This document shows, one piece after another, positions 6,806-51,222 of a DNA stretch of 64,000 nucleotides. Where the stretch lies: the NCBI RefSeq assembly GCF_003591005.1, contig NZ_QYYD01000005.1, positions 124,001 through 188,000 of the forward strand. Direction: 5' to 3'. A program made the position numbers and the translations under genes. This DNA is from Rhodopseudomonas palustris (GTDB taxonomy: Bacteria; Pseudomonadota; Alphaproteobacteria; Rhizobiales; Xanthobacteraceae). The notes beneath the pieces were generated by a model. The model did no database searches, was not told where the DNA came from, and saw only the letters and a list, made by a program, of their open reading frames with translations. The stretch's first letter is position 1, and each line of letters begins with the position of its first letter.

Positions 6806-6806
6806 C

Positions 6807-11005: not shown

Positions 11006-11014
11006 GTCGGACCC

Positions 11015-15744: not shown

Positions 15745-15752
15745 GGTGATGC

Positions 15753-20623: not shown

Positions 20624-21354
20624 GTACCGGAAGAAGAACTACGATCGGCTTTGATCGAACGATAAACCTGGAATGGCTTGATATTGCCGCCGCGCGGATC
20701 TTGAGGCGCGAGCCGCCGTCGGAAATACGGAAGGCCCTGTGGGATTTTCTCGAAGATCTCGTTCCAGGTAACACGAACAGCAGTGGGCGCGGAAAAACCC
20801 TCACGGTCTTAACCCGCATCTGGCTAACGGTCCCGGATCAAATCGAACCGTTGCGCACCAGTGCTATCAAGCGCCTGGCGTCGGCAAATGGCGACAACCG
20901 CGTGGCTGTTCACTGGGCTATGGTTATTGCCACGCATCCGTTCTTCTTCGACGTCGCCACGCACGTCGGAAAGCTTCTCGCGCTCCATAGTCAAGCCCAC
21001 AGAACTCAGATCAAGCGCCGGATGGCGGAATCCTGGGGTGATCGCTCAACGTTGGAGCGAGCAATCCAACATGTACTCAAGTCGATGGCTCAGTGGGGGG
21101 TGCTGCATACGGGCTCGGAAAAGGGGTCGCTGGTAGTCGCCCGCAATCCGATTCACGTCTCCGATGAAATCGCCGAGCTACTGGTGCACGGGATTATGCT
21201 AAGCCGAGGACGCGGCATGCCATTTTCACAATTGGTCAGACACCCCGCCCTATTTCCGTTCAAGCTGCAGCTGAACACCGTTACACTCAGAAAGCATTCA
21301 TACCTTCGCCTTCAACGTCAAGGCGATCAAACTGACTTTGTTGAACTAGATTGA
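20620..21354 (+). CDS. brxA: BrxA-like BREX protein (DUF1819-type)
   Basis: The 244-residue protein occupies the brxA position at the end of the type 3 order and is coupled to pglZ by ATGA. The middle resembles BrxA in pattern: HWAMVIATHPFFFDVATHVG, then a spacer, then RRMAESWGDRSTLERA and a helix ending in WGVL. This mirrors the LFYEFMNEVF / VASWSDYTI...L.EAGLL pattern I recall of Escherichia coli BrxA. BrxA is a small DNA-binding accessory protein with a NusB-like fold. The assignment depends on this pattern plus position, so it is less certain than for its neighbours. Confidence 0.65.
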   Translation: MSTGRRTTIGFDRTINLEWLDIAAARILRREPPSEIRKALWDFLEDLVPGNTNSSGRGKTLTVLTRIWLTVPDQIEPLRTSAIKRLASANGDNRVAVHWAMVIATHPFFFDVATHVGKLLALHSQAHRTQIKRRMAESWGDRSTLERAIQHVLKSMAQWGVLHTGSEKGSLVVARNPIHVSDEIAELLVHGIMLSRGRGMPFSQLVRHPALFPFKLQLNTVTLRKHSYLRLQRQGDQTDFVELD

Positions 21355-21430
21355 AGCGAACGAACCAAGCGGGTCACGGCGAGTCTATGATCATTGCGGA
21401 TTTTACATCGCATTTTGATTTGAGCTATAC

Positions 21431-22540
21431 TTATTTGCCAACACTCGTTTCCGAGTGCTCCACGCTCTCCTTTGCCGGAAACAGCCTCGCCCTTTGCTCG
21501 GCAGGCGTCGGATTCAGATACTTCATCAAAACCGCCACCGTTTTGTGACCGCTCTGCTGCATCAGCGTCTTCAGATCGGCACCTCCCGCCGCCATCCTCG
21601 ACAATGCTTCGTGTCGGAGATCGTGAATTCTCAGGTCTTTACACCCTGCCCTGACCCGGACCTCATTCCGCCAAGCATCCTTTGCGACCCAGGCCGTGAA
21701 CCGGAAGACCTTGCTGTCGGCAGGCTCTCCGTCGGTCAGGTCGAGCAGACCGGCATAGGCTCGATCCGAAAGCGCGACGTGCCGTGCGCTGCCGTTCTTT
21801 GAGTCGGGGATGTAGACAAATCCGTACTCCCGTCGGATCCAGGCGCATTCGATCGAGATGGCCTCTCCAAGTCGCATTCCAGTGTCAAGGAGCAGCGGAA
21901 AGAGTGCGCGCCACTGCCGGCGGGTCGGGTCGACTGAAAGCCCTTCGATGGCCTTCGTGATGGCCTCTTCCTCTCCCTCGAGGAGCCGCCGTTCACGGTG
22001 CCCGGTGGGCTGCGGCACGCCTCGCCGACGCTTCCGAAGCGAAGCGATCGGATTGGTGATGTCCACGGACTTTTCGTGAATCAGCCACTCGTAGACGGCC
22101 GAGATGGTGTTGAGGTTATTCCTGATCGTGGATGCCGACTTCCCAGCCTCGCTGCGGGCATCGCGGAAGTCCACAAAGTCCGACACGGTCAGATCCCGGA
22201 TGCGCTTTTTAGCGAAGTCCTCCCGGCCCAACATCTGAAGCATTGCGGATTCCTGCGACGCCCCCTTCTTCTCGGGCGTGACCTTAACGCGATAGGCGTC
22301 CAGCGCCTCTGCAAAGGGCTTTTCGGGCCATCCAAGCGGTCCGTAGTTCTTTGGCTCGAGCCGATGATCGCGCCAAATGCCGAGTTTCATTTCCGACTCG
22401 GTCTTATTGAGCCAAAGCTTGGCGTCGGATTTGAGCGCGAACGTTTGTGTGACGGACGAACCCCAAGCAGGTCCCTGAAAAGTATCCGGCAGCCGGGCCG
22501 TTGCGGTCCATTTGCCGTTACGCTTACTCAAACTCGACAT
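21431..22540 (-). CDS. int: Tyrosine recombinase/integrase of the island
   Basis: The protein has 369 residues from ATG 22540; the frame extends to 22576 without a better ribosome site. The catalytic set of phage-type tyrosine recombinases is complete: Arg in GMRLGE (223), Lys in SKNGSARH (248), HDLRH (306-310), GH (331-332) and the nucleophile Tyr in MKYL (341). A SAM-like core-binding domain lies at about 75-165. It would catalyse integration and excision at a tRNA gene. The gene faces away from the att-like site at 22559-22650, which lies directly upstream. Such placement is typical of integrative elements that use tRNA-Ser 3' ends. Confidence 0.9.
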   Translation of the reverse strand: MSSLSKRNGKWTATARLPDTFQGPAWGSSVTQTFALKSDAKLWLNKTESEMKLGIWRDHRLEPKNYGPLGWPEKPFAEALDAYRVKVTPEKKGASQESAMLQMLGREDFAKKRIRDLTVSDFVDFRDARSEAGKSASTIRNNLNTISAVYEWLIHEKSVDITNPIASLRKRRRGVPQPTGHRERRLLEGEEEAITKAIEGLSVDPTRRQWRALFPLLLDTGMRLGEAISIECAWIRREYGFVYIPDSKNGSARHVALSDRAYAGLLDLTDGEPADSKVFRFTAWVAKDAWRNEVRVRAGCKDLRIHDLRHEALSRMAAGGADLKTLMQQSGHKTVAVLMKYLNPTPAEQRARLFPAKESVEHSETSVGK

Positions 22541-35782: not shown

Positions 35783-38104
35783 TTACCGCCACTGCTTCTC
35801 CTCGTTGACCCACTGCGAACCAGGTAACGCACCGTCCTTGATGAAAGCATCAACAACGTTCGACAATATTCGTGAAACATTGTTGTCGAAGCCGTTGATC
35901 GGCAGCGCCTGGCCGAACGCGACCGATCCGGCCGAGAACACGGCGCCGTCGTTAGGCGCGGTGAAATACGCCATGTCGGCGCGGATGCGGTAGTCGTAGG
36001 ATCCCGACATGCCCTCGAAGGCGTAGTGGACCACCTCGGGATTGAGCAGATAGTTATCGATGTGGCCGCCCGAGGAGGCGATCAGCTTGACGTGCGGCGG
36101 CGTGCCGAGGCTCGGATCGCAACGGTCGATAGCGATGCCGGCGGCGCCACCATAGGCCAGGCCGGAATCGCCGATCACCTCGCCGCTGACGCCCTTGGTC
36201 AGCCAGGTCACCGTGCGGTGATAGCTGTCCGGCATGCGGCGATAAAATTCGCTCTTGCCATAGCCCTCCGAGATGAAGCCGACGCCGACCATTTTCTGCG
36301 CCGGCCGCCCCTGCCCGCGCCAGGCGCCGCCCTTTTGGCCGTTGCTGGCCATGTAGTATTCGCCGGGCCGCGCGTCCCAGGTCTTCCAGGCCGGACCGTA
36401 TTTGCGGCACTCCATCACCCAGGGCTCGTCCGCCCGGAACGCGACGCTCCAGTGATAGCCGTTGCCGCCCATGTAGATGTAGCGGCCGCCCGCGGCGATG
36501 TAGTCCTCGGTCGCATCGAGCATGCGCTCGGAATAATACTCCGGGTGCGTTCCGGTCATCACGCAGGTGTAGGGCTGCAGGGCGTCGAGGCCATCACGTT
36601 CGAGATCCTCGTCGGTCAGCACGTCGTAAGCGTAGCCGCGATGTTCCAGCCAGGCGATGATCGACAGGTCGGCCGGGAACTGCCAGGCGACGTTCGGCCC
36701 GGCCGCACGATGCTTCGGCCGCATGTTGAGGATCGGGCGGCGAGACGACGAGTAGCAGACGCCCTGCCGGTCACTCCAATGATCGCAGGCCGACAGGCCG
36801 AACTCGTCGCGGCCGCCGAGCTCCACATCGACCGCCGACAATACCGGCGTCATGCCGGTCACGGACTGCGTCATCGACGCCTCGAAGCTTTGACGGTCGT
36901 TGGCATAGCCGATGTAGCTGGCGGTCGGAAACAGGAACGCGAGCCGGCTGGTCGGCGTCTTCGGCCGCACGAAAAACGGGATGTAGTCTTCCGCCACCCC
37001 ATCGTCGCCGCGCGCCCGCAGCCGCATCGCATAGGCGCCGCTGCGCAGATCGGCAGGCAGCTTCACCAGGCGTGCGCTCGGCCAGTTACAGTCGGTCAGC
37101 GCGTCGGCATGAAATTCGATGCCGCCATATTCCTGCGGCGCCAGCCGGAAGCAGTCGTTGCGGCCGCTCCAATTCCAGCCGGTCTGGCCGCGCACCGGCC
37201 GGTTATGGCCGTTCGCATTCAGCTTCCACGGCCCGACATCGATCACCACATCGCCGATTCCGGCGTCCGAATAGCCGAGCGACGTGTCCCAATAGGCAAG
37301 CAGATGATCCGGCGGCGGTTGGCCGCCCTTGCGGATCGCGTCGAGTTCGTCGCGACCGAGTGTACGGCCGATCAGGCCGGGCCGGTCGATCTTGCCACTG
37401 TACAGCTCTGAAACGGCCGCGCCGCGCTTCGCCGGGCCGAGCCAGGCGCCGGCGATCAGGAACGCGGTGTCGGCGCGCTGCTTCGGCCGCGTCGGCATCG
37501 CTTTCGTCACATGGCTGCGATAGTCCAGCACCGCGACACGGCTGAGCAGGCTGTTGTATCGATTGATCACCGCCTCCTGGTAGATGCTCGCCTGCCCGCT
37601 CTGCGCATCAAACGCGGCCGCGACCAGATACCAGATATCCGGCCGTAGCGCCGTCTCGGCGACGACGGACGCGACATTCACCTGATCGCCGAGCACGAAT
37701 TCGAGATGGCCGTCCGCCGTAATGCCGAGGCCGTAGCCCGCGCGGCCCGCAATGTCCCAACGGCCGAGCAGCGTCTGACGGCTTTCCGCCTTCGGCTTCG
37801 TCGGACAGATGAAGGCGAACACCGTGAAGCTGCCGTCCGGCGCGAGCTTGGCTTGCGGGTCGTCGACTTGCAGATAGGACCCCAGTTGCGTCACCTGCTC
37901 GCCCACCACCCAGCCGCCGTTCGCCTCGCAATCCACCTCCTGCTCGATGAAGCCCGGGCCGGCGGGATGCTGGTCGCCGTGAATCAAGCGCACAAGCTGA
38001 GCGGTGGCTTTCATCGTGCCTTCGGCATGGACAAAAACATCGAGGGTCTCGCCGGGCTTGACCGACAGCCGGTCCGTATAGCCGAACAGCTTGGGCATCG
38101 TCAT
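35783..38104 (-). CDS. dmfA2: N,N-dimethylformamidase-like large (beta) subunit, copy 2
   Basis: The protein has 773 residues, matching the 760-770 residues of known dimethylformamidase large subunits. It opens with a short beta domain (KLFGYTDRLSVKPGETLDVF), has a LamG-like concanavalin fold (about 100-250) and then the catalytic region. Family signatures include GRNDCFRLAPQEYGG, GTHPEYYSERMLDAT and SSGGHIDNYL. The characterised enzyme hydrolyses N,N-dimethylformamide to dimethylamine and formate with a mononuclear iron bound by two tyrosines and a glutamate. The tyrosine-rich HPEYYSE segment is a plausible site. The gene overlaps the small-subunit gene by ATGA, so the pair makes one enzyme. 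The true substrate may be another amide. Confidence 0.85.
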   Translation of the reverse strand: MTMPKLFGYTDRLSVKPGETLDVFVHAEGTMKATAQLVRLIHGDQHPAGPGFIEQEVDCEANGGWVVGEQVTQLGSYLQVDDPQAKLAPDGSFTVFAFICPTKPKAESRQTLLGRWDIAGRAGYGLGITADGHLEFVLGDQVNVASVVAETALRPDIWYLVAAAFDAQSGQASIYQEAVINRYNSLLSRVAVLDYRSHVTKAMPTRPKQRADTAFLIAGAWLGPAKRGAAVSELYSGKIDRPGLIGRTLGRDELDAIRKGGQPPPDHLLAYWDTSLGYSDAGIGDVVIDVGPWKLNANGHNRPVRGQTGWNWSGRNDCFRLAPQEYGGIEFHADALTDCNWPSARLVKLPADLRSGAYAMRLRARGDDGVAEDYIPFFVRPKTPTSRLAFLFPTASYIGYANDRQSFEASMTQSVTGMTPVLSAVDVELGGRDEFGLSACDHWSDRQGVCYSSSRRPILNMRPKHRAAGPNVAWQFPADLSIIAWLEHRGYAYDVLTDEDLERDGLDALQPYTCVMTGTHPEYYSERMLDATEDYIAAGGRYIYMGGNGYHWSVAFRADEPWVMECRKYGPAWKTWDARPGEYYMASNGQKGGAWRGQGRPAQKMVGVGFISEGYGKSEFYRRMPDSYHRTVTWLTKGVSGEVIGDSGLAYGGAAGIAIDRCDPSLGTPPHVKLIASSGGHIDNYLLNPEVVHYAFEGMSGSYDYRIRADMAYFTAPNDGAVFSAGSVAFGQALPINGFDNNVSRILSNVVDAFIKDGALPGSQWVNEEKQWR

Positions 38105-38487
38105 TCACCACCCCCGCTCGGCTCTTCCATCAGGCTCTGTACGTTGCGCAGAAAGATCGCGTGCTCAGCTTCGGCCTGCGACCGATACAGCGTCTCATCG
38201 ATCGACTTGGGCGGCACGCCCCGTTTGCCCGACAACAGCACCAGCCGATAGGCTTCGAACGGCGTCACCACCATGATGGCGTGGCGGCCAGCGAGCGGCC
38301 GCCGACGAAAGTAAGCGAGCAGCCGCTCCAGCGGCTCGCTGTGCTGGCCGATCGGCGAGCGTCTGTGCTCTTCGATCACGCGCGGCGACACCAGCGTCTT
38401 GAGGAATTCGCGCTGCTTTGTCTCGTAACGAAGGCGCCGGATCTCTGCCCGGTCCTGCGTGTCGATGACTGCGTTCATGAGCGTCAC
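38101..38487 (-). CDS. dmfA1: N,N-dimethylformamidase-like small (alpha) subunit
   Basis: The 128-residue protein is the size of the dimethylformamidase alpha subunit (about 130). Core motif: REFLKTLVSPRVIEEHRR, then GQHSEPLERLLAYFRRRP, then GKRGVPP near the end. It overlaps the start of the large-subunit gene by ATGA and follows the first large-subunit copy by 9 bases. Comparison with the C-terminal domain of the permease encoded at 40865-42514 shows near-identical motif order, proving that the latter is a fused copy of this subunit. Confidence 0.8.
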   Translation of the reverse strand: MTLMNAVIDTQDRAEIRRLRYETKQREFLKTLVSPRVIEEHRRSPIGQHSEPLERLLAYFRRRPLAGRHAIMVVTPFEAYRLVLLSGKRGVPPKSIDETLYRSQAEAEHAIFLRNVQSLMEEPSGGGE

Positions 38488-38496
38488 TCCGGCGGG

Positions 38497-40827
38497 TCAG
38501 GTCGCGAGCACGTCTTCGCGTGCGGACCCACGCTCGGACGAATCCGGCAGCGGGCTTGGCTTGATGAAGGCGTTGATCACATTCGCAAGCAGCCGCGACA
38601 CGTTGTTGTCGAAGCCATTGGCCGGCAGCGCCTGCCCGAACGCAATCGAGCTGCAGGACAGCACGGCGCCGCCGTTCGGCGACGGGAAATAGGTGATGTC
38701 GGCGCCGACCCGATGATCCCAGCTTCCCGACGTCCCCGGAGTTTGATGCAGCTGTAGCTGCCCATGGGTGAGATAGTTGTCGGTGTGGCCGCCCGAGGAG
38801 GCGATCACCTTGGTGTTGGGCGGCGTGCCGAGCGACAGATCATATTTGTCGAGTTCGATGCCGGCGGCGCCGCCATAGGACAAGCCAAAACCGCCGATCA
38901 GTTCGCCCTCGATGCCCTCGGTGATCCAGGCCAGCGACGGCTCGTAGCTGTCCGGCATGCGCTCGAACGGCGCGCTGGTGCCGAAGCCTTCGGAAACGAA
39001 ACCGACTCCCATGATCTTTTGCGGCGGGCGGCCGAGGCACTTCCACGGCCCGCCCTTCTGCCCGGTCGTTGCCATATAGTGCTCGCCGGGCCGCGCCTCC
39101 CAGGCCTTCCAGCCGTCGCCGAGCTTGCGGCATTCCAGAACCCAGGGCTCGTCGTCGCGGAACGCGACGTTGCAGTAGTAGCCGTTGGCGCCCAGATAGA
39201 TGTAGCGGCCCCCGCCCTCGATATAATCCTCCGTCGCGTCCATCATGCGCTCGGAATAATACTCCGGATGCGTGCCGCTGAGCACGCACGGATACGGTGC
39301 CAGCGCCGCGACCCCTTCGCGGTCGAGGTCCTCGTCGGTCAGCACGTCGTAGTCGTACTGCATGTGCTCGAGCCAGGCGATCACCGACAGGTCGGCCGGG
39401 TATTGCCAAGTAATGTCCATGCTGGAGATGCGATATTTCGGCCGCATGTTGATCACCGGCCGGTGATAGGAGCTGTAGCAAACGCCCTGCCCGTCGGCCC
39501 AGGAATCGTAGCAGCCGTGACCGAACTCGGGATTCTTGTACATCTCAATGTCGATGTCGGCCAGAATCGGCGTCATGCCGCTCATACCCTGGACGATCGG
39601 CGCGTCGAACGACAGATGCTCGTTGGCGTAGGCCAGATAGCTCGCCGTCGGGATCAGGAAAGCGATGCGACCGGTCGGCTGCTTGGGCCGGACGAAGAAC
39701 GGGATGTACTCCTCGCCGAGCCCGGTGCCGTCGCCACCGCGCAGCCGGATGGCATAGGCACCGCTGCGCAGATCTTCTGCGAGACGCAGCGCCCGCGTCG
39801 GCTTCCATTTGCAGTCGATCAGCGCATCGGCGTGAAACTCGACGCCGCCATATTCCTCCGGCGCCAGCCGGAAACAGTCGTTGCGGCCACTCCAGTTCCA
39901 GCCGGTCTGCGCGCGGACCGGCCGGTTGTAGCCCATCGCATGAAGCTGATACGGGCCGACGTCCGTGACGATGTCGCCGATCCCCTGATCGGTGTAGCCG
40001 TGGGTCGTGTCCCAATATGCCACCATGCCGTCTGATGGCGGCACGCCGCCGCCGCGGATGGCATCGAGCTCGGCGCGGCTCAGCACGCGATCGAACAGGC
40101 CCGGCCGATCGATCTTGCCGCAATACAACTGCGACACGAAGTGGCCGCGCCGATCGTGCCAATCACGCGAACCGGCCATGAGGAACGGCGTATCGTCGAG
40201 ATGCTTCTGGCGGAAGCGAAAGCTCTCGGCCACGTGCGAGCGCAGATCGAGCGGCGTGACCTTGCCGAGCACGCTGTTGTAGCGATTGACGACGCCCTCC
40301 TGATACAGCGTCGCCCGGCCGGTCGCGGCATCCAGGCTGGCGGCGACGAAGTACCACATGTTGGCGCGCAGCGGCACTTCTGCCTCGACATAATCGACCT
40401 CGTCGCCGCGCCCGACCCAAAACTCGAGTAGCCCGTTCGGTTTAATACCGAGCCCGAAGCCGACATTCTTATCGTTGTCCCAGCGACCGAGCAGGAACTG
40501 ACGATGGCCTACCTGCGGCCACAGCGGATGGATGAAGGCGAATAGGGTTAGGCTCCCGGCGAGCGCCAGCCGCCGGTCCGAATCGGGTACTTCAAGAAAA
40601 GAGCCGACCTGCGTGTACTGCTTCTCGACCCGCCAGACGCCGTCGATCGCGGAGGGAACTTCCTGCTCGACGAAGCCGGGGCCATCCGGATGATTATCGC
40701 CGTGGATCAGCCGCACCAGCTGGGCGTCCGCAGCGTCGGTCCCGTCGGCGTTGACGTAGAACTGGATGAGCTCTCCCGGCTTGACCGATATCTTGTCCGC
40801 ATAGCCAAAGAGCTTTACTTGTGCCAT
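38497..40827 (-). CDS. dmfA2: N,N-dimethylformamidase-like large (beta) subunit, copy 1
   Basis: The protein has 776 residues and is collinear over its full length with the copy at 35783-38104. It shares KLFGYADKISVKPGE at the start, GRNDCFRLAPEEYGG, GTHPEYYSERMMDAT and SSGGHTDNYL. The two differ widely enough in the LamG-like region to suggest an old duplication with separate substrates. It lies 37 bases downstream of the permease-small-subunit fusion, so its partner may be that fused domain rather than the free small subunit. The expected reaction is hydrolysis of an N-substituted or simple amide, releasing an amine and an acid. Confidence 0.85.
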   Translation of the reverse strand: MAQVKLFGYADKISVKPGELIQFYVNADGTDAADAQLVRLIHGDNHPDGPGFVEQEVPSAIDGVWRVEKQYTQVGSFLEVPDSDRRLALAGSLTLFAFIHPLWPQVGHRQFLLGRWDNDKNVGFGLGIKPNGLLEFWVGRGDEVDYVEAEVPLRANMWYFVAASLDAATGRATLYQEGVVNRYNSVLGKVTPLDLRSHVAESFRFRQKHLDDTPFLMAGSRDWHDRRGHFVSQLYCGKIDRPGLFDRVLSRAELDAIRGGGVPPSDGMVAYWDTTHGYTDQGIGDIVTDVGPYQLHAMGYNRPVRAQTGWNWSGRNDCFRLAPEEYGGVEFHADALIDCKWKPTRALRLAEDLRSGAYAIRLRGGDGTGLGEEYIPFFVRPKQPTGRIAFLIPTASYLAYANEHLSFDAPIVQGMSGMTPILADIDIEMYKNPEFGHGCYDSWADGQGVCYSSYHRPVINMRPKYRISSMDITWQYPADLSVIAWLEHMQYDYDVLTDEDLDREGVAALAPYPCVLSGTHPEYYSERMMDATEDYIEGGGRYIYLGANGYYCNVAFRDDEPWVLECRKLGDGWKAWEARPGEHYMATTGQKGGPWKCLGRPPQKIMGVGFVSEGFGTSAPFERMPDSYEPSLAWITEGIEGELIGGFGLSYGGAAGIELDKYDLSLGTPPNTKVIASSGGHTDNYLTHGQLQLHQTPGTSGSWDHRVGADITYFPSPNGGAVLSCSSIAFGQALPANGFDNNVSRLLANVINAFIKPSPLPDSSERGSAREDVLAT

Positions 40828-40864: not shown

Positions 40865-42514
40865 TCAGGATTCCAGCAGGTCGTGCACGCGGCGCAGGAA
40901 CACGCCGTGATATGCATCCTTGCTGGTCTTGTAGATCTTGTCTTCGACCACCCGCGGCGCCACACCTCGGAAGCCGGACAGCGCCACGATGCGGAAGCCC
41001 TCACCCATCGCCGAGATCGCGTATTTGTCCGGTTGCGGCTGGCTGCGGAAGTAGATCAGCAGCCGCTCCAGCGCCTCGCTGTGCTGGGACTGCGGCCCGC
41101 GGCGATGCTCGTCGATGATGTCGGGTGTCACCAGCGTCTTTAGAAAATCGCGCTGCATCTTGTCGTAGCGGCGCCGATAGGCTTCGTCGGCATTGTTGAT
41201 CTCGGTCGCCTCCTCGGGCAGCAGCTCGCCGCCCTTCTCGGCGCGGGTCGAGCGTCGCTCGCTCTTCTTCTTGTCCCGCCAGCTGCGGAACTGCTGCTTG
41301 ATGCCGAAGATGCCGTTGCGCAGATAGATCACCGTCGCCAGCATGATCAGGCCGATGATGATCAGCCGGATCGGGCCGAGCGTGATCATCACCTTGTCGA
41401 AAAACACCACGATCAGCGTGCCCACCACCGCGCCGTCGGCGCGTCCGATGCCACCGATCACCAGCATGGCGAGGCCGAGCAACACGGTGTCGAAATTGAA
41501 CAGCGAGAATGCGACGCCGCCGAAATTCGCCGAATAGAATCCGCCGATGAAGCCCAGCGCAACCGACGAGATCAGGAACACCCGCACCCGCGCCTGGCGG
41601 AAATCGACGCCGGTAGCCTGAGCGAACGCCTCACGCTTCTCAGGCGCCATGCGCAGGATGCGGCCCAGCCGCCGCCCGTTGACGAAGCGATACAGCAGCA
41701 GCGCTAGAAGCATCATCGCAAAGCAGGCGTAATAGGCGAGCCGTAGCTGCCCGCTCTGCGACCAATCTTCCGGGATGTACGTATGGGCACCGTAGAGCCC
41801 CCCGGTCGCCGCGCCGAACTCCTTCGACGTGACGAAATAGACGCGGCACAGCTCGTTAAGGCCGAGCGTCAGGAGCGCGTAATAGAAGCCGTCGAGCCGG
41901 GTCGCCGGCAGCGCGATCAGCCCGCCGAAAATGAGGCCCACGATCGCGCCGGCCGGAGGCAGCAGCCACCATGGCAGGCCGAACTGGACCGAGAGGAATG
42001 CGGTGAGGAACGCCGCGGTGCCGACCACCGCGTAGGTCGCCAGCGAGAAGATGCCCGCGGTGCCGATCACCAGCATCCAACAGAGATTGATGGCCGCATA
42101 GATGCCGAACGTGGCGCCTGCCGTCAGCAGCGTGTTCTCGAGGCGCATCGGTGTCAGCCACGGCACCAGCGCGAGCGCCAGCAGTCCCAACACCCACCAG
42201 ATCGGCCGCTTGTCGACGATCGTCTTCTCACGTCGCAGCGTCTTGGCGTTGTACTCGCCGCGGATGCGCAGCAGCCGCCGGCGGGTCGGCCAGTAACGCC
42301 AGCGATTCCACGTCTCTGCGCCGTGACCGGGCCATTTGTAGTAGTAGCGCAGTCGCCCCACCGGCGACAGTGTCACTTTCGAGCTACGCGTCGCCTCCCA
42401 GACGTCCTGATGGCTGCGGTGCGGAACCGTCGGCAGTTCTTCGGTCTGGCCATCCTTATCCCAGACGTAGAGCGGATTGCGCCAGATCGTTCCGCCGGCT
42501 TCGGTCGAGCTCAT
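40865..42514 (-). CDS. LivM-type ABC permease fused to a dimethylformamidase small-subunit domain
   Basis: The protein has 549 residues, far above the usual 320-360 of LivM/UrtC permeases. An unusual N-terminal extension (about 1-95, Trp- and Arg-rich) precedes the permease with 8-9 membrane spans, including VVGTAAFLTAFLSVQFGLPW and GGIGRADGAVVGTLIVVFFD (about 95-405). A basic linker (WRDKKKSERRSTRAEKGGEL) leads to residues 438-549. These align with the free small subunit at 38101-38487: RDFLKTLVTPDIIDEHRR, then SQHSEALERLLIYFRSQP. The C-terminal domain should be cytosolic. The start overlaps nothing; the stop of the LivH permease is 3 bases away. The fusion could tether the hydrolase to the importer. 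Confidence 0.9.
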   Translation of the reverse strand: MSSTEAGGTIWRNPLYVWDKDGQTEELPTVPHRSHQDVWEATRSSKVTLSPVGRLRYYYKWPGHGAETWNRWRYWPTRRRLLRIRGEYNAKTLRREKTIVDKRPIWWVLGLLALALVPWLTPMRLENTLLTAGATFGIYAAINLCWMLVIGTAGIFSLATYAVVGTAAFLTAFLSVQFGLPWWLLPPAGAIVGLIFGGLIALPATRLDGFYYALLTLGLNELCRVYFVTSKEFGAATGGLYGAHTYIPEDWSQSGQLRLAYYACFAMMLLALLLYRFVNGRRLGRILRMAPEKREAFAQATGVDFRQARVRVFLISSVALGFIGGFYSANFGGVAFSLFNFDTVLLGLAMLVIGGIGRADGAVVGTLIVVFFDKVMITLGPIRLIIIGLIMLATVIYLRNGIFGIKQQFRSWRDKKKSERRSTRAEKGGELLPEEATEINNADEAYRRRYDKMQRDFLKTLVTPDIIDEHRRGPQSQHSEALERLLIYFRSQPQPDKYAISAMGEGFRIVALSGFRGVAPRVVEDKIYKTSKDAYHGVFLRRVHDLLES

Positions 42515-42517
42515 CGG

Positions 42518-43399
42518 TCAGGCCTCCCTCGCTTTGTCCAGCAGGCCGGCGATGCCGCGCGGCCGCACCAGCAGGATGGCGATGATCAGCAGGAACTGGG
42601 TAATCAGGACGTAGCGGCCGCCGACCGAGACGGTGGTCAGCGCCTCGTTCAGGCCGAGCACCAGCGCAGCGATCACCGCGCCCTGCACGCTGCCGAGCCC
42701 GCCGCACAGCGCGATGGCCACCGCCTTGATCATCGGCATCAGCCCGCCGAACGGCGAGATGTAGTAAGTCTGCGACAGCAGCACAGCCGACAATCCGGCG
42801 AGGCCGCCGGTGATGGCCATGACGTAGAACGAAGTCCGCCGCACGCCGATGCCGACGATCGAGGCCGCATGCGGGTTCATCATCATGGCGCGGATTTCGA
42901 GGCCGCGGCGGCTCGACCGCATCCAGCGCAGCACCAACAGCAGCATGATGACAGAGGTCAACACGTTGCCCACCCGGTCGGCGGTGAGAACCATGCCGGA
43001 CATCGACAGTTTCCAGGTGCCGAAGATCTCCGGCAGGTTCTTCGAGCGCGGCCCGAACCACCACATCAGCGTTTGCGTACCAACCAGATTGATCGCCAGC
43101 GTGGCGATCAATCCGCGTGTGGTGAAGTTAGGCTTGTCGTGAATCGGGATGAACGCCACCGCGCAGACAAGAACGCCACCAAGTGCGCCGGCGAGGATTC
43201 CGACCCCGAGCACGGCGGGGCCGAACGTGGTGACGTATTGGGCGAACAGCCAGGCCCCGTAACCCGCGAAGGCGAACACGAAGCCATAGGAAAGGTTGAG
43301 CAGGCCGAGGCTCGACCAGGTGATCGAAACGCCGATCGCCAGTGTGCCGTAGATGGCGGCGAGCACGATCGTGTTGCTGATGATGAACCACAGATCCAT
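42518..43399 (-). CDS. LivH-type branched-chain/amide ABC permease
   Basis: The 293-residue membrane protein starts at ATG 43399; the frame is open further upstream only as a shadow of the ATPase gene. About eight hydrophobic spans follow the LivH/UrtB order, with GTLAIGVSITWSSLGLLNLS near the start and GGLGSVQGAVIAALVLGLNE as the EAA-like cytoplasmic loop. It forms a heterodimer with the fused LivM-type permease 3 bases downstream. The operon with two ATPases and a binding protein specifies a hydrophobic amino acid transporter (HAAT) family importer. The amidase genes downstream suggest amide substrates. Confidence 0.9.
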   Translation of the reverse strand: MDLWFIISNTIVLAAIYGTLAIGVSITWSSLGLLNLSYGFVFAFAGYGAWLFAQYVTTFGPAVLGVGILAGALGGVLVCAVAFIPIHDKPNFTTRGLIATLAINLVGTQTLMWWFGPRSKNLPEIFGTWKLSMSGMVLTADRVGNVLTSVIMLLLVLRWMRSSRRGLEIRAMMMNPHAASIVGIGVRRTSFYVMAITGGLAGLSAVLLSQTYYISPFGGLMPMIKAVAIALCGGLGSVQGAVIAALVLGLNEALTTVSVGGRYVLITQFLLIIAILLVRPRGIAGLLDKAREA

Positions 43400-43404
43400 G
43401 TCAT

Positions 43405-44166
43405 CTACGCCTTGCTGACGTCGTGCAGCATCAGAGCTGCGGAGGCCTCGCCCTTGAGCTTGCCGGCGTGCATCCCGATGATGCGGTCGACGCGGCCCTC
43501 GAGCAGCGCGACGTTCTGCTCGGCGATCACCATCGCCGACGTGCCGAGGTCGATCGCCATCAGCGCATCGATCACGCTCTTGCCGATCTTGGGCGCGAGG
43601 CCGAGCGACGGCTCGTCGACCAGGAACAGCGACGGCTCGGCCATCAGTCCGCGCCCGATCGACACCATGCGGCGTTCGCCTCCCGACAGTCGACCGACCG
43701 GGATGTGCATCAGCTTCTTGAGCGGCGGGAAGATTTCCAGGATTTCGAGCTTGCGCTGCGCCCTTTCGCGCCAGGCGCGCGGCGTGAAGGCGCCGGAATC
43801 GAGATGCTCCTCCACCGTGAGGCCGTGGAAAATCTCGTCTCCCTGCGGGATCAGCGCCAGACCGGACCGCACGATCTGATGGGTATAGCGCCCAGGCCCC
43901 TGGCTGCGGGTCCGGCCGACCTCGGCGCCGTTGAGCTTGATCGAACCGCGCTGCCACCCGGTGAGACCGGCAATCGCGTAGAACAGTGTCGACTTGCCGT
44001 GACCATTGAGACCGACGATCCCGATACGCTCGCCGGAGTTGACGATCAGATCGAGATCGTGAATCACCCGCATCGGACCGTAACCCGCCGACAGGCCGGC
44101 GACGTTCAGGACCTCGCGCCGATCGACCGAGGCGGTCGACAACGGTCTCGTTGCAGCAGCCGGCAT
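43405..44166 (-). CDS. LivF-type ABC transporter ATP-binding protein
   Basis: The 253-residue ABC ATPase has Walker A GLNGHGKSTL (about 53-62), signature LSGGERRMVSIGRGLMAEPS (near 160) and Walker B SLFLVDEPSLGLAP. The size and short C-terminal end match LivF/UrtE, the smaller of the two ATPases of HAAT-family importers. It is separated from the LivG gene by 3 bases and from LivH by 5 bases, so all belong to one operon. Together with LivG it drives import at the inner face of the membrane. Confidence 0.9.
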   Translation of the reverse strand: MPAAATRPLSTASVDRREVLNVAGLSAGYGPMRVIHDLDLIVNSGERIGIVGLNGHGKSTLFYAIAGLTGWQRGSIKLNGAEVGRTRSQGPGRYTHQIVRSGLALIPQGDEIFHGLTVEEHLDSGAFTPRAWRERAQRKLEILEIFPPLKKLMHIPVGRLSGGERRMVSIGRGLMAEPSLFLVDEPSLGLAPKIGKSVIDALMAIDLGTSAMVIAEQNVALLEGRVDRIIGMHAGKLKGEASAALMLHDVSKA

Positions 44167-44169
44167 GCG

Positions 44170-44934
44170 CTAGGCCTCCTCCACATTTTCGAAATAGGCG
44201 GCGTGGACCTTGGGATCAGCCAGCACGTCCTTCATCAACCCCTCCGAGATGACTTCGCCCGCATCCATCACCATGACGCGATCGGCAATCGTCGACAGCA
44301 GCTCGATGCGGTGCTCGACGATGACGATCGAAATGTTCATTTCCTTCGACAGCACACGCAGCAGGAAATCGATCTCGTCGACCTCGGAGTTGATGAGTCC
44401 CGCGGCCGGCTCGTCCATCAGCAGCAGCGACGGGCGACGCATCAGCAGACAGGCGAGCAGCAGCTTGCGCCGGTTCAGCGTTTCGAGCTGAACCGCCGGC
44501 GTGTCGGCGTCGACCTTGAGGTTGACGAGCTCAGCGCCGTACTCGGCATCGTATTTGGTGAGGTAAGGCGGAAAGGCCTGACGCGCGGCCTTGAAGGTCT
44601 CCTCCACGGTCAGTTCGTCGGGGATCACCGGCGTTTGATACGTACGGCCGATGCCGAGCCGCGCGCGGGCGTGCAGCGGCAGCGAAGTAATGTCCTCGTT
44701 TTTGAACCACACCTTGCCGCTCTTCGGTGCAATGCGGCCGGACAGCACTTCGAACAGACTTGTCTTGCCTGCCCCGTTCGGCCCGATGATGCCGAGCACC
44801 TCGCCGCGACAGACGCTCAGGTCGATGTCGTGCAGGATCGTCCGGCCGCCCAGATCGAGGCTGATGTCGCTGCCGGTGAACAGCGGCTGGCGTGCCGCGC
44901 CGCTCCGCCGATCGTCCTGTGCCTGCATCAGCAT
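44170..44934 (-). CDS. LivG-type ABC transporter ATP-binding protein
   Basis: The protein has 254 residues from ATG 44934, which shares a base with the stop of the binding-protein gene (TGATG); a GTG at 44946 is the longer alternative. Walker A is GPNGAGKTSLFE and Walker B is PSLLLMDEPAAG. The signature region reads LETLNRRKLLLACLLMRRPS, an LSxGQ-degenerate form (LETLNRRK). This departs from the canonical LSGGQ and is seen in some members of LivG-like amide-transport ATPases. The C-terminal LivG extension ends in DVLADPKVHAAYF. It pairs with LivF. Confidence 0.85.
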   Translation of the reverse strand: MLMQAQDDRRSGAARQPLFTGSDISLDLGGRTILHDIDLSVCRGEVLGIIGPNGAGKTSLFEVLSGRIAPKSGKVWFKNEDITSLPLHARARLGIGRTYQTPVIPDELTVEETFKAARQAFPPYLTKYDAEYGAELVNLKVDADTPAVQLETLNRRKLLLACLLMRRPSLLLMDEPAAGLINSEVDEIDFLLRVLSKEMNISIVIVEHRIELLSTIADRVMVMDAGEVISEGLMKDVLADPKVHAAYFENVEEA

Positions 44935-46220
44935 CAGGTCCACCACGGCGCGGGCTTGAGCTTGGCTTCCGACACTTCGGACGGGAAGATCAGCTTGTGA
45001 TCCTTGTCCTGAACCTGGAAGTACAGCTGCGCCATACCCTTTTCGAGCTCTGAGACCTGAATGTCGTCACCACCATTGTTCGGGAAGTGGAAGGCCTCCT
45101 GATAGGCGTTGTTCATGTCGAGAAAACCGGTGACGCCGCGTTGCGGATTGGCGCGGATCCAGTCGGACACGTCCTTGAACTTGCGCGGATCGCCGACCGC
45201 TTCCCAGGCTTTCTTGAGGTAGTAGGTGTGGTCGTAGGCGAGACCCGGATAGGTCAGGCCCATGATGCCGGGGAAGCGCTTCTTGTATTTGTCGCCGAAC
45301 GCCTTCCCTTTTTCGTCTGCATAAAGCCCGGCCGTGGTCGACCATGCGAAACCGTTGGCGGAATTGCCGGCCAATGTCAGGAATTCCGGCTGCGACGGGC
45401 CGTATTGCAGATAAACCAGCGAATTCGGCACCGGATCGGCGACGAATTGCTTGCAGAACGCCGCGTATTCGGCCGCGACCCAGTGGTCCACCATGATGGC
45501 GCCGGCGTCGACGTCCTTCATTTCGCGGATCACCGGCGACCAGTCCTGAACCGGAAACTGAATGTCGGTGACGCGGGCGACCTCGAACTTGCCCCGCTTC
45601 TTGATGGCTTCCTGCGCGGCCTTGGAGATCGTCTGGCAGTAAGCCACCTGCTCCTGGATGATGTGGACCTTGCGGTTCTTCGGCTTCCAGACGCCGAGCT
45701 TTTCCTCGTGTTCGAGCCACAGCGGATACGTCCAGCCATAATTGACCTCCGATGGCGCCGTCTGAAACACATGGCTGAACTTCTGCGGGTTTTTCTTCAC
45801 CGCCTCCGTGCCGGCACGCTGCGCGTTGCCGTAAAGCAGCGGACACTTGTACTTGGAGGACGCGTCGATCGCCGGGATCGGCACCAGCGTGAAGGCGAAC
45901 GAGATGGCATCGACCTGGGCGTCGACGCAGGCGGCGATGGCCTGCTTGCTGCTCTCCGGCGACAACACGTCGATATCGACCATGAACAGTTTCAGCTCGC
46001 GGCCCATGATGCCGCCGGCAGCGTTGATCTCCTCCACCGCCAATGTCGAGCCCTGGGTGAAGTCGAGATGATCCGCAACGCCCGCCGCCGAGGTCTGCGC
46101 CGACGGCATCCCGATGGTGATCGGCTTGCCTGTGAACGCGCGCGACTTGGCAATCCACGGCATCGCCATCGCGGCGCCGAGCCCGGCGGTGACGGCGCGT
46201 CTGGTCAGATTCGAAGTCAT
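44934..46220 (-). CDS. Periplasmic amide/urea-type substrate-binding protein of an ABC importer
   Basis: The protein has 428 residues from ATG 46220 with GGAGGG 6 bases upstream; the frame upstream of this is not coding-like. The N-terminus is a twin-arginine-like signal (TRRAVTAGLGAAMAMPW), with export to the periplasm inferred. The mature protein has the periplasmic-binding type 1 fold: ITIGMPSAQTS at the ligand pocket, then VEEINAAGGIMGRELKLFMV, the hallmark of amide- and urea-binding proteins related to FmdD and AmiC. It heads the operon. The ligand is most likely a short amide; urea and branched-chain amino acids cannot be excluded. Confidence 0.85.
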   Translation of the reverse strand: MTSNLTRRAVTAGLGAAMAMPWIAKSRAFTGKPITIGMPSAQTSAAGVADHLDFTQGSTLAVEEINAAGGIMGRELKLFMVDIDVLSPESSKQAIAACVDAQVDAISFAFTLVPIPAIDASSKYKCPLLYGNAQRAGTEAVKKNPQKFSHVFQTAPSEVNYGWTYPLWLEHEEKLGVWKPKNRKVHIIQEQVAYCQTISKAAQEAIKKRGKFEVARVTDIQFPVQDWSPVIREMKDVDAGAIMVDHWVAAEYAAFCKQFVADPVPNSLVYLQYGPSQPEFLTLAGNSANGFAWSTTAGLYADEKGKAFGDKYKKRFPGIMGLTYPGLAYDHTYYLKKAWEAVGDPRKFKDVSDWIRANPQRGVTGFLDMNNAYQEAFHFPNNGGDDIQVSELEKGMAQLYFQVQDKDHKLIFPSEVSEAKLKPAPWWT

Positions 46221-46696: not shown

Positions 46697-47719
46697 GTGA
46701 GCTACGCGCCCGACAGTTCCGTCATTCTGGCCTGGGGTGCTTCGCCGCAAGATGCGCGCGGACAAATGATCGACCGCGCTGCCGAAGTGACCGGGATCAT
46801 CCGTGATTTGGTGCGCTGCTCGGCTTTCGCTTTGTGCGCGTGGGATCCGCTGGCTCGCACCCACCGGCATCTCACTCTGGCGTCTGACGGCTACTCGGAC
46901 GCGGTGCTGGCGCACGTCAACGATGAATTCGTCCGAAGCAACCCGGCCTTCATGATCGCCCACCGCGACGAGCCGCGGGCGCTACGCTGGCGCGACTACG
47001 AGAAAGACTGGGATCTGTGGTTTCAGGACACGCCCACGGCGCGCGATTATTTGATCCCTTCCGGTTTCAGCGAAGGCTCGACCATGTGCCTGCGGCTACC
47101 GGATGGCCGCTATTGCGGCGCCATCCATGTCAGTTGGACCTCGCCGGCGGCCGCGACCGACGAGCGCCGCGAGATCACCGAGCGCTTCCGTCCGATTCTC
47201 GCCGAGGTCTGCGATCAGCTGCGCATGCCGCATCTGCTGGCCGAAACCCTGCCGGTCAACGCCCATGCGCTGGTGATATCCGCCAACGGCGCCGCCTTCA
47301 GCCTGAAGGCGCGCGCACCCGGCGTGCATCTGGCGCCGGACGGTGCGCTGCGGCGCTTACTTCTTGACACCGCGTCGACGTGGTCGGCACGCCGCTTCCT
47401 GTGGTGCGACGATGGCGGCCAATGTCACCGCGTAACGCTGATCCCTCGCCAGCGTGGCGTGGTACTGGTCAGCGAAGAACAGATCGAATGGCCGCATGAT
47501 CTGAGCTGGCGCGAAATCCAAGTGCTGCACCTCGTCTCAACCGGGGCCTCCAATCCGCAGATCGCCAATCAGCTCTGCGTCGCGCCGCGCACCGTCTCGA
47601 CCCATGTCGAGCACATCCTGGCGAAGATGGAGTGTGTGTCCCGCACTGCGCTCGCAGCTCGCGCCGTGGCTGAGGGCTTGTTGCTTCCACGCGATCCCGG
47701 CAATCGAGATCGGCGCTGA
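46697..47719 (+). CDS. LuxR-family transcriptional regulator with GAF-like N-terminal domain
   Basis: The protein has 340 residues. The N-terminal about 180 residues are a GAF/autoinducer-like sensor domain (LTLASDGYSDAVLAHVNDEF; LRLPDGRYCGAIHVSW). The C-terminus is a LuxR/GerE helix-turn-helix: LSWREIQVLHLVSTGASNPQ followed by IANQLCVAPRTVSTHVEHIL. It is divergent from the amide importer and dimethylformamidase operon, so regulation of that operon is the most economical reading. LuxR-type regulators next to dimethylformamidase operons are known in Paracoccus and relatives. The inducer may be the amide itself. The start GTG or ATG is close to the frame start; no better site was seen. Confidence 0.8.
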   Translation: MSYAPDSSVILAWGASPQDARGQMIDRAAEVTGIIRDLVRCSAFALCAWDPLARTHRHLTLASDGYSDAVLAHVNDEFVRSNPAFMIAHRDEPRALRWRDYEKDWDLWFQDTPTARDYLIPSGFSEGSTMCLRLPDGRYCGAIHVSWTSPAAATDERREITERFRPILAEVCDQLRMPHLLAETLPVNAHALVISANGAAFSLKARAPGVHLAPDGALRRLLLDTASTWSARRFLWCDDGGQCHRVTLIPRQRGVVLVSEEQIEWPHDLSWREIQVLHLVSTGASNPQIANQLCVAPRTVSTHVEHILAKMECVSRTALAARAVAEGLLLPRDPGNRDRR

Positions 47720-48112
47720 ATTCGACAGAAAGACGCGCCGCGCCTGCCGATGGCAGCCCGCAACCCTTTGGACCTCCATCCCGGATGCAGGGGCAAGCCT
47801 CGCCCTTTTGAAGCGTTTTGAACCGATAGAGGGAAATCACACCCGTCTGGCGACAACTCCACATCGACGCCATGGATCTGCGCAGCGCGGCGTCGGAGAC
47901 TCGAACGAACGCGTATCGGCGCTCCAGCCGCAGAACGAAGCCGCCACTTGCGCTTTAGGACGACGGGGCTATGCTCACTGCATTCGGCGCGCTTCGATGC
48001 GGCAGCGCGCCGGCGCGGCAGTGATTGCCACTTCCCAGTTTATGGGACGGCTTCTGCTCGCGCGCTGCGTTGTCGCCGGCTGCCGTCCTTCGTAGATTAC
48101 TCGGAGGATAGC
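47720..48112. other. 393-base spacer between the LuxR-type gene and cbbQ
   Basis: High-G+C DNA without a supported gene. An upstream extension of cbbQ to 47948 lacks a ribosome site, whereas TCGGAGGA precedes 48113. A promoter for cbbQO is expected here. Confidence 0.4.
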
Positions 48113-48913
48113 ATGAGCCTCGACTCCTACCGGATCATAGCCGAACCCTATTATCAGCCTCACGGCAACGAGATCGAGATCTTCACCGCGGCCTATGCCG
48201 AGCGGCTGCCGGTGATGCTCAAGGGCCCGACCGGCTGCGGCAAGACGCGGTTCGTCGAGCACATGGCTTGGCGGCTCGGCAGGCCGCTGGTCACCGTGGC
48301 GGCGCACGAGGACATGACCGCCGCCGACCTCGCCGGCCGCTATCTGCTCGAGCCGCAAGGCACGGTGTGGCATGACGGACCGCTGACTCAGGCGGTGCGG
48401 CACGGCGCGATCTGCTACCTCGACGAGATCGTCGAGGCGCGGCAGGACACCACCGTGGTGATCCATCCCCTCACCGACGCCCGCCGCATCCTGCCGCTGG
48501 AAAAGCACAACGAGATCGTGCCGGCGCATACCGACTTCCAGCTCACCATCTCGTACAATCCCGGCTACCAGAGCGCGGTGAAGGATCTGAAGGAGTCGAC
48601 CAAGCAGCGGTTTCTCGCAATCGACTTCTCCTATCCGCCGCCGCAGATCGAAAGCGCCATCGTGGTGCGCGAGAGCGGCGCCGACAGCTCGCTCGCCGAT
48701 ATTCTGGTGGCGATCGGCCAACGCTCGCGCAATCTGCAAGGCCACGGCCTCGACGAAGGTGCCTCGACGCGGATGCTGATCCATGCCGGCCGGCTGGTGC
48801 GCGGCGGCGTGCCGCTCGGGGCCGCGGTGCAGTCGAGCATCGTGCTGCCGATCACCGACAATCCCGACGTCCGCGCCGCGCTGCGCGCCGCCATCGAGGC
48901 CTGCATGCCGTGA
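48113..48913 (+). CDS. cbbQ: CbbQ/NorQ-type MoxR AAA+ ATPase
   Basis: The protein has 266 residues. The single AAA+ module has Walker [16 protein letters not shown] (about 35-49), Walker [15 protein letters not shown] and the MoxR-type helix insert. The typical CbbQ/NorQ segment [20 protein letters not shown] carries sensor 1 and the conserved Arg. CbbQ works with the VWA protein CbbO to remodel target enzymes (Rubisco activation, or metal insertion into nitric oxide reductase for NorQD). It is coupled to the VWA gene by a GTGA overlap. No Rubisco or nor gene lies in the window, so the client is probably local. Confidence 0.9.
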
Positions 48914-51222
48914 GCGCGGAGACGAGCCGCCCGCTCCTGCACATCGTCGCGCCGACGCCGGACAGCGCGACGCGCGAGCTGCACCAGATGATGCGGCAGC
49001 GCGAGACGCTGCGTGCGCCGTTCCGCGCCGCCTGGGACGACCTCGCGACGCGGCGGAGCGAGGCTGATCTCGACGCCTGGGCGTCCGCGGTGCTGGAGCT
49101 CGCTCATGTCAACGCGGGCCCCGGCTGCCTGATCGCCTTTTGGAACGTTAGCCGCAGCGAACCCGGCGACAACGTCGCGCCGCTGCTGGCCGCCGCCAGC
49201 GCGGCCGCGGAGATCTGCCGCGAGGCCGGCGCCCGCACCGCGGCGCTGAGTCTGAAGGCGCTGCCGATCGCCCGCAACGCGTTCGCCTCCGGCCCCGAGC
49301 TGGCGCGCTGGTGGCGAGCGATGACGCAGTTCGCGCATGAGGCGCCTGAGTGCGTCGAGCCGATGGCGCTGCGGATGGCGGCGATCCTGGCGCCGGGCTC
49401 GGTCGAGGCGTTCGAGAATTTCATCGCCGCCGGATTGAAGCTCGCGGGCAGCGATCGCCGCGTCCGGCAGAATTACTTCACGCTGCAGCACGAGCTGGCG
49501 CAGCGGCTGATCAGCCGCGACTTCGGCGGCGTCGATTTCGCCGAGACCGAGCGCCACCTCAAGGCCTTCGTCACCGCGTTGTGGGGCCGCGTGCCGCTGC
49601 TGCGCGCTTTGCCCTGCGGCGACACCGCGGTGGCGCGGCGCTCGGCGATCGCCGGGCCGCTGATCCGGTTGCCGGAAGTCTATCGCGGCTTCGAAGGCGA
49701 CGAGGCCTGGCAGCTGTATCGCGCCGCCGCCGCGCACACGCAGGCGCATCTGGTGCTCGGCGGCAGCCGCTTTGCGGTCGGCAAGCTCAAGCCGCTGCAG
49801 ATCGTGCTGGTCGGGCTGATCGAGGACGCGCGGATCGAGGCCCTGGCGCTTCGGCAATTGCCCGGGCTGCGCCGGCTGTGGGCGCCGTTTCACACCGCGA
49901 GGCCCGCCGGCATCGCCACCGCGCCGGCGCTGCTGGCGCGGCTCGCCCGCGCGCTGTTCGATCCGAACTACGACGACGATCACGGCTTCATCGAGAAGGC
50001 CCGCGCGTTGTTCGCGGCCGCGCAGCCACGGCTGCACGACCCGGCGATAGCCCGCGAGATCGGCATGCTGCTCGGCAACGATCTCGGCCAGATGCGGCTG
50101 CAGTTCAACGCCAAGACCCACGTGATCGAGCCGGTGTATCGCGACGACAATCTCGGCCTGTGGGATTTCGACGAGCCGCCGCAGGCCAATGCCGAAGTGC
50201 TGGAGATGTTCGTCGACGCGTCGCGCATCGAGCAGCAGGAGACCGACGAGGCGCCGCCGGACGATCGGCAGCCATCGGACAGCGACGCCGGCAAGGCGCG
50301 GCCGGTGGCGCCGGACAGCCGCGGCACCGTGCTGGCGACCTATCCGGAGTGGGATCGCCGCCACGGCATCGAGCGGCCGGAATGGACCACGGTGCGCGAG
50401 GTTGCAGCGATCCGCGGCGACGCGCGTCGCATCACCGACGCGCTCGACAGAGCCGACGCGCTGCGCGGCCGCGTCACACGGCTGGTGCGCGGCCTGCGCG
50501 TCGGCCGCAGTGTCCGGCTCAATCGCCAGCCCGACGGCCATGATCTCGACCTCGACGCGGTGATCGACGCTGGCCTCGCGCTACGCACCGGCCAGGAGCC
50601 GGACCCGCGCGTGTTTCGGTCGTCGACCTCGAAGCATCGCGATCTTGCCGCACTGCTGCTGATCGACATCTCGCAATCGACCAGCGACCGCCTGCCGTCG
50701 GGCGCGAGTGTGCTCGATGTCGAGCGGCTCGCGGTGGCGGTGCTGGCCGAGGCGATGCAGAAGCTCGGCGATCCGTTCGGGCTATTGGCCTTCGCCTCCG
50801 ACGGCCGCGACGACGTCAAGCTCACCACCGTGAAAGCCTTCGCCGAGCCCTACGGCACCGAGGCGATGGCGCGGCTCGACGGCCTCGCCGCCGGCTACTC
50901 GACGCGGCTCGGCACCGCGCTGCGCCACGCCGGCGCGGTGATCGGAGACCAACGCAGCTTCCGCAAGCTGGTGCTGGTGCTGACCGACGGCGAGCCGTCC
51001 GACATCGACGCCAGCGATCCCGCCGACCTGATCGAAGACGCACGTCGCGCCGCAGTCGGCCTGCACGCCCGCGGCATCGACGCGTTCGGCGTCGTCCTCG
51101 GCAGCCCCGGCATGGCGGCCGCGGCGCGCATTTTCGGCCGCGGCAACACCATGCTGGTGCACCGCGTCGAGGACCTGCCGGCGAGGTTGTCGGAGTTGTA
51201 TTTTAGGTTGGCAAGGCGGTGA
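48910..51222 (+). CDS. cbbO: CbbO/NorD-type VWA-domain protein
   Basis: The protein has 770 residues from GTG 48910. The long helical N-terminal part is followed by an acidic linker, and the C-terminal VWA domain (about 560-770) carries the [18 protein letters not shown] near 590, a Thr in [11 protein letters not shown] and [12 protein letters not shown] near the end. Length and layout match CbbO/NorD adaptor proteins that connect the CbbQ ring to its client. The MIDAS Asp-x-Ser-x-Ser is DISQS, complete. Location between a dimethylformamidase operon and a urease operon suggests maturation of one of these metalloenzymes. Confidence 0.85.

Follow-up and report, generated by a model that had tools for sequence, protein, structure and literature searches.

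A branched-chain-type ABC permease fused to a dimethylformamidase small-subunit domain in Rhodopseudomonas palustris and its relatives: a candidate importer-docked amidohydrolase

An operon encoding a Liv-type ATP-binding cassette (ABC) importer together with dimethylformamidase (DMFase)-like proteins resides in a window of 64,000 nucleotides of Rhodopseudomonas palustris DNA (G000:C55:124001-188000, G000 being this genome; other genomes and loci are denoted by G and L numbers). One of its genes encodes a 549-aa protein in which a LivM-type permease is joined to a DMFase small-subunit domain (40865-42514). The operon is on the minus strand, and includes, in order, a substrate-binding protein (SBP; Peripla_BP_6, 44934-46220, closest solved structure 3h5l_A), with a twin-arginine-like signal, ATPases of the LivG (44170-44946) and LivF (43405-44166) types, the LivH-type permease partner of the fusion (42518-43399), the fusion, a first DMFase-like large subunit (776 aa, 38497-40827), a separate free small subunit (128 aa, GTG start as listed, 38101-38487) and a second large subunit (773 aa, 35783-38104). 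The first large subunit is of the DmfA2 type, as it matches PF20254 and features Y399, Y440, E521 and H519, the equivalent of N547 being kept as well. In the second, the iron ligand Y440 is replaced by Cys, and the set of three iron ligands is incomplete. A LuxR-type regulator encoded divergently on the plus strand (46697-47719) shares 26% identity over 315 aa with DmfR, which activates the characterised DMFase operon of plasmid pAMI2.

All segments of the fusion are on the minus strand. An N-terminal extension (residues 1-103, 42206-42514), basic and predicted to be cytosolic, is modelled mostly with low confidence; its residues 50-103 are conserved, with a mean pairwise identity of 72% among 43 fusions. 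The segment that follows (41306-42205) leads to a basic linker (residues 404-445, 41180-41305), helical at 405-427 and broken at 428-432, and the linker to the fused small-subunit domain (residues 446-549, 40868-41179). The permease half matches PF02653 (BPD_transp_2) above cut-off and has a permease fold, and its partner SBP, permease and ATPases are in the operon. The protein scores far below the curated NCBIfam cut-offs for LivM (59.3 of 366) and UrtC (46 of 296.2). In structure comparison with VIA-align the permease fold is BtuC-like, the N-terminal extension being scarcely covered. In BtuC both termini are cytosolic. The basic N- and C-terminal stretches and the BtuC-like model make it probable that the fused C-terminal domain is on the cytosolic side. 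This domain matches 6lvb chain B in sequence and fold. In the Paracoccus DMFase the large subunit alone is inactive, the N-terminal helix of the small subunit is wedged between two large subunits, and both subunits shape the entrance of the active site (PMC7686228). The linker of the fusion runs directly into the helix equivalent to that N-terminal helix.

The sequence-only reading had proposed a continuous permease-small-subunit protein, and this is borne out by the relatives. A second operon of the same genome (L009) encodes a 64%-identical fusion. The C-terminal domain is present in all 44 loci of titled genome records, found with patterns of the N-terminal extension and not of the small domain, with best-segment identities of 59-96%. 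These loci are from Bradyrhizobium, Rhodopseudomonas, Methylocella, Methylobacterium, Methylopila, Hansschlegelia, Hyphomicrobium, Verminephrobacter and others. The order SBP-LivG-LivF-LivH-fusion-large subunit, all six being at least partly visible, is found in 41 of the 44, the remaining three (L030, L045, L066) being cut by contig ends. Beta- and gammaproteobacterial metagenome assemblies are also represented among the 44. Among plasmid records 27 match the fusion, 26 of them over at least 80% of the query, and the hosts are Agrobacterium, Rhizobium, Aminobacter and Ensifer. Judged from their names, the carriers are soil, methylotrophic and symbiotic bacteria. The plasmid matches are annotated as "branched-chain amino acid ABC transporter permease" in 24 of 25 listed rows, one record being unannotated, and amide-degradation loci may be missed for this reason.

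In 296 genomes of the family, with at most four candidates scored per genome, permease matches below E 1e-41 are all fused, and no unfused close relative is better than E 2.7e-40, where unfused LivM proteins begin. In 274 genomes around G993 (cut-off 1e-30) nothing was found besides its own fusion and one short small-domain match. Small domains, fused and free pooled and the own genome included at each level, were detected (E<=1e-5) in 25 of 296 genomes of the family, 34 of 385 of the class and 6 of 398 of the phylum. In a small-domain tree of 25 rows the fused domains are all on one side of a branch (support 87/92, 86% of bootstrap trees), a pattern that permits, and does not prove, a single origin of the fusion. 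Two candidate fusions were discarded. A Halalkalicoccus plasmid sequence annotated as "inner-membrane translocator" is a small-subunit gene of 180 residues, and the open frame of 483 codons at L105 has no permease match. The former (L167, 8779-9321, Halalkalicoccus jeotgali) is a free archaeal small subunit whose name is apparently borrowed from the bacterial fusion.

The fusion is directly upstream of a large-subunit gene, as a DmfA1-type small subunit is. A large-subunit match adjoins the small domain in all 63 loci fetched (114 match rows of small-domain searches; some of the 63 repeat one place), and the fused domain thus occupies the place of dmfA1 in the pAMI2 operon. Inspection of the neighbourhoods of relatives, as the sequence-only reading had suggested, reveals both proteins with the two domains and their pairing with the large subunit. 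In 32 of 41 titled loci with a complete large-subunit gene the stretch examined shows, for that system, no small domain besides the fused copy; the other nine have a second small-plus-large module, as in the window. In eight genomes (G008, G015, G020, G041, G057, G272, G296, G993) the fused copy is the sole small domain found with 11 or 15 candidates scored per genome. Variations on the gene order were observed. L016/L170, L027/L171 and L166 feature fusion, separate small gene and large gene, both small forms being accompanied by one large subunit in view. In L133/L173 a 383-aa porin-like protein (Porin_O_P below cut-off) is encoded between the fusion and the large subunit, as if an outer-membrane step were included in the operon.

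The linker is the most strongly conserved region of the fusion. The distance between G401 and R455 is 54 residues in all 43 fusions aligned (the window fusion and 42 of 51 others listed), and mean pairwise identity is highest in the linker (77%, vs. 70% in the small domain and 68% in the permease). In three pairs of fusions dN/dS is 0.02-0.13 in the linker and 0.03-0.09 in the fused domain, dS being partly near saturation (about 1 or more in two of the three). A loose string is not expected to hold its length, and the linker is read for this reason as fixed geometry. Synonymous variation is not lowered across the linker (0.413 at residues 404-431, 0.455 in the permease, 0.414 in the small domain), nor is linker dS low, and the nucleotide signal is therefore local.

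Like the fusion itself, its conservation, the gene order and both folds, the signals of a nested in-frame start in relatives are evident at the level of sequence: a start codon, a codon bias and an open mRNA, all three lost or weakened where a free small-subunit gene exists. The residues K427-G-G-E-(M) (427-431, 41222-41236 in the window, minus strand), the presumed site, are nearly invariant in fusions, and the underlying codons split into two classes. NTG is found at codon 431/432 in all 42 loci without a separate small gene and in 8 of 13 loci with one, "without" meaning that none was seen in the same operon within the stretch examined; for L014, L138, L086, L104 and L173 the assignment is by genome search (11 or 15 candidates scored per genome). 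K427 is encoded by AAA for 39 of 41 lysines in the former class and in 1 of 13 loci in the latter, and at least one GGA is found at G428/G429 in 33/42 and 0/13 loci, respectively. The mRNA from -30 to +20 of codon 431 is more open than expected from synonymous resampling in 38/42 loci without and 5/13 loci with the separate gene (mean z +1.75, p 2e-11, vs. mean z -0.4). The window sequence at this site is AAG GGC GGC GAG CTG, with CTG CTG at codons 431/432 and no start codon; here the separate gene (38487-38101) would substitute for the nested start. Evidence for the two classes predates the codon inspection, and the class lists were written down afterwards. A first count covered 45 and 14 loci; the recount of 42 and 13 is without the repeats L012=L073, L147=L061, L140=L050 and L144=L037, no further identical stretches having been found. 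L030, L052, L066, L013 and L156 were set aside as truncated or unchecked; of these, L030 is without the signals, most of which are present in the remaining four.

The openness peaks at this site. Along the fusion gene (46 steps, 17 representatives) the maximum is at codon 431 (rank 1, z 2.0); the adjacent steps reach z 1.23 and 0.64, every other step is at or below 0.54. In the first count, other sites of the gene have a mean z of -0.19. Among 237 positions in the six operon genes of 17 hand-picked loci, the most open are fusion codons 436 (z 1.54) and 426 (z 1.42), which flank codon 431. The codon signals hold among representatives at 80% identity, 17 without and 4 with the free gene (AAA in 16 and 1, GGA in 14 and 0, NTG in 17 and 1). 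In 11 of 13 other conserved Lys columns the share of AAA is 5-18%; 702 other Gly pairs have a mean GGA share of 0.19 and a maximum of 0.62, none reaching 0.80 (column controls on 45 rows, three being repeats). Codon context was rejected as a cause of AAA at K427, since in the rest of the operon AAA encodes 66 of 334 lysines that precede Gly, and 7 of 21 in Lys-Gly-Gly. M453 was dismissed as a second internal start, no Shine-Dalgarno match being found in 41 of 43 rows.

The fusion tree requires two changes to explain the free gene, and the codon features are decayed in both clades. Aminobacter MDW-2, inside the tandem clade, retains AAA-GGA-GGC-GAA-ATG, and no other small domain was found on its plasmid. 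Among seven Bradyrhizobium-type loci, six have a separate gene that starts with MLPLEYDR, which resembles the nested MLPEEATE, and GGAGAG precedes the start of that gene by a few bases. The fused domain is intact in each of the 13 loci where the small subunit also has a gene of its own.

The most probable reading of these data, held with moderate confidence, is that an amide importer carries the small subunit of the enzyme that cleaves its own substrate. The transporter (SBP, LivH, LivG, LivF and the fusion) would import an amide; the fused cytosolic domain would bind the iron amidohydrolase large subunit encoded by the next gene, and keep it on the cytosolic surface of the membrane, close to the permease exit. 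Liv-type importers have one LivM per transporter, which would imply one tethered small subunit, vs. the alpha2beta2 composition of the characterised enzyme. In most relatives the missing free subunit would arise, as a product of about 119 residues, when translation starts in frame at codon 431/432 of the fusion gene; in the window and its nearest relatives it would come from the separate gene. Small subunits of two kinds, one fused to the permease in the membrane and one free, thus seem to be available from each operon. Most simply, the two are both required, the tethered one to hold the enzyme and the free one to fill the second place of the alpha2beta2 assembly, because the 13 loci with a free gene all retain the fused domain, and the 42 others all retain at least a start codon. 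Internal initiation, docking, the mixed tethered and free stoichiometry, the hand-off of substrate and the identity of the latter are what we infer from these patterns.

Large subunits provide a further element. In 33 of 33 rows with a single large subunit Y399, Y440, H519, E521 and N547 are intact (the unfused L010, with N547D, was left out), which makes the tethered partner usually a plausible catalyst. In all 11 operons examined with two large subunits, one copy is altered at one or more of the five residues. Three sets of changes were found, Y440C (the window, L031, L032), Y399F/L with H519R (seven loci) and E521A (MDW-2). The Y440A, E521A and H519A mutants are reported to be inactive (PMC7686228). 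Intact and altered copies from ten of these operons fall into two starred groups, with their order swapped between subclades. If MDW-2 is included, its two copies cluster together and resolution of the intact group is lost; one duplication or several may have taken place. The two large subunits of Aminobacter sp. MDW-2 (L162, pMDW2, 13730-21444) are 84% identical, and are followed by a propionyl-CoA synthetase and a haloacid dehalogenase, which hints at a xenobiotic amide. From their sequences, duplicated large subunits offer a lead towards a hetero-dimer with one working and one structural copy. In the full scheme, put forward tentatively, one gene would yield both an importer subunit nailing the amidohydrolase to the transporter exit and, from a hidden start, a soluble subunit completing alpha2beta2; where a new gene supplies the soluble subunit, the hidden start would decay and the nail be kept, and duplication of the large subunit would lead to the hetero-dimer.

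Several observations weigh against the importer-docked reading and its nested start. Shine-Dalgarno energy reaches p<=0.05 in 13 of 42 loci only (16/45 in the first count), and is weak alone; the AAA-GGY-GGA-GAG-ATG subtype is no better than the codon null. The loss of signals is incomplete, L016 retaining AAA and 8 of 13 free-gene loci a possible start codon. Open mRNA is seen in some free-gene loci too, in L033 (z 1.55) and to a lesser degree in L056, L036 and L027, and one of the four free-gene representatives is at z +1.33. Conversely, openness is absent from 4 of the 42 loci that lack a free gene, and K427 is AAG in L071 and L174. The K60 and K497 columns also are 71% AAA. The correlation rests on few events, as there may have been no more than two gains of the free gene, and a single origin of the fusion is backed by the small-domain tree at 87/92 only. 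In seven Bradyrhizobium-type loci, moreover, the altered copy (Y399F/L, H519R) is directly behind the fusion, so that the pair held by the tether need not be the active one. The earlier proposal that the permease tethers the adjacent large subunit has to be adjusted accordingly. The fusion, the probable cytosolic side of its C-terminus and the pairing in all 63 loci speak for it; yet tethering is probably one of two uses of the small domain, the free form that many relatives appear to make from an internal start having been missed, and the adjacent large subunit is altered in those seven loci. A channelling of imported amide into hydrolysis, also proposed there, is conjectural.

The same seven loci would suit a binding-only role, as expected if the abundance or occupancy of the large subunit, bound by the fused domain, gates the transporter, as a sensor or a lock, with no hand-off of substrate. 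A conserved linker of fixed length could work as a tether or, equally, as an allosteric lever, and the additional conserved cytosolic N-terminal extension fits such regulation too. The five site residues intact in all 33 single-large rows argue to the contrary, and regulatory coupling is held to be unlikely. Read-through fusions arise easily between neighbouring genes, and the start-like signals at codon 431/432 might indicate that the fusion merely carries a nested gene, the free small subunit being useful and the fused copy a neutral read-through. Were this so, the fused domain would hardly be intact in all 13 loci that encode a small subunit separately, nor would its dN/dS be 0.03-0.09 in three pairs; the linker length, moreover, is invariant in 43 of 43 fusions, though the part before codon 431 is outside the free product. 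This explanation appears improbable.

Similarly low is the probability assigned to the notion that codon bias and open mRNA at 427-436 serve translation pacing or the like, without any free product. The location of the site, about 30 codons past the last membrane helix, is as pacing would have it, and so are the weakness of the Shine-Dalgarno test, its failure in one subtype and the persistence of open mRNA in some free-gene loci. The membrane part, however, is of the same kind in loci with a separate small gene, where the signals are mostly gone; a start codon at 431/432 goes with the signals in 42 of 42 loci, and the separate gene resembles the nested one in six of seven Bradyrhizobium-type loci. 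The joining of two genes by an assembly error, a frameshift or a chimera has a negligible probability, and was rejected given the paralogue in the same genome, the 44 of 44 titled loci and the plasmid copies.

DMFases of the DmfA1/DmfA2 type (Paracoccus, PDB 6lvb; pAMI2) differ from the proteins described here in that DmfA1 of pAMI2 is a free protein, whereas the small subunit is here fused to an ABC permease and preceded by a whole importer. Solved relatives of DMFase include, by substrate, an N-acetyl-(R)-beta-phenylalanine acylase. LivHMGF and UrtBCDE importers similarly have an SBP, two ATPases and two BPD_transp_2 permeases in one operon; the fusion differs from them by scores far under the curated cut-offs and by its extra N- and C-terminal cytosolic parts. 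Production of a C-terminal part alone, by internal in-frame translation, is reported for Cas11b from cas8b (PMC11899642), where Cas11 has a role in complex assembly, and RpnS from rpn (PMC10327210). In contrast to those cases, the full-length product is here a membrane permease, and the internal start is indicated by sequence signals. The CesCD ABC transporter is reported to tether cereulide synthetase to the membrane (PMC7527721), but there the enzyme is biosynthetic and no covalent fusion is involved. The parts, a Liv importer, a DMFase and a gene within a gene, are hence known; for their combination, no report of the fusion was found in searches of a library of open-licence PMC papers, subscription journals being outside this scope and the internal start of this gene not having been searched.

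If correct, the proposed importer-docked amidohydrolase would be a genetically encoded importer-enzyme complex with an enzyme subunit built into an ABC permease, and a dual-product gene would set the tethered and free shares of the small subunit. With the fusion, transport-coupled catalysis by an ABC importer can be tested directly, and uptake-linked amide degradation is offered a natural anchor. Neither neighbouring genes nor the binding protein point to a clear substrate, the neighbours being regulators, an amine oxidase by two free relatives, and a haloacid dehalogenase in MDW-2.

A third, unfused DMFase-like system of the genome is encoded just beyond the window (L010, G000:C55:188001-204000, 5563-13338). 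It likewise has Liv-type importer genes followed by small- and large-subunit genes (open reading frames read by eye), but permease (368 aa) and small subunit (146 aa) are separate, and the order is SBP-H-M-G-F-small-large. A fifth DMFA2_C match (G000:C11:149596-150804) is inside an open frame of 1863 codons and may represent another architecture; no small-domain match is listed on that contig. In the window, a CbbQ/NorQ-type AAA ATPase is followed by a VWA protein, presumably CbbO/NorD-like, at 47948-51222 on the plus strand. Nine loci (L038-L043, L049, L058, L059) have a set of genes in common about 0.3-4.2 kb upstream. These encode another protein of the periplasmic-binding type, a histidine kinase with PAS and receiver domains, and a response regulator of the LuxR type (Pfam was run for L058 and L043 only), and may form an amide-sensing system.
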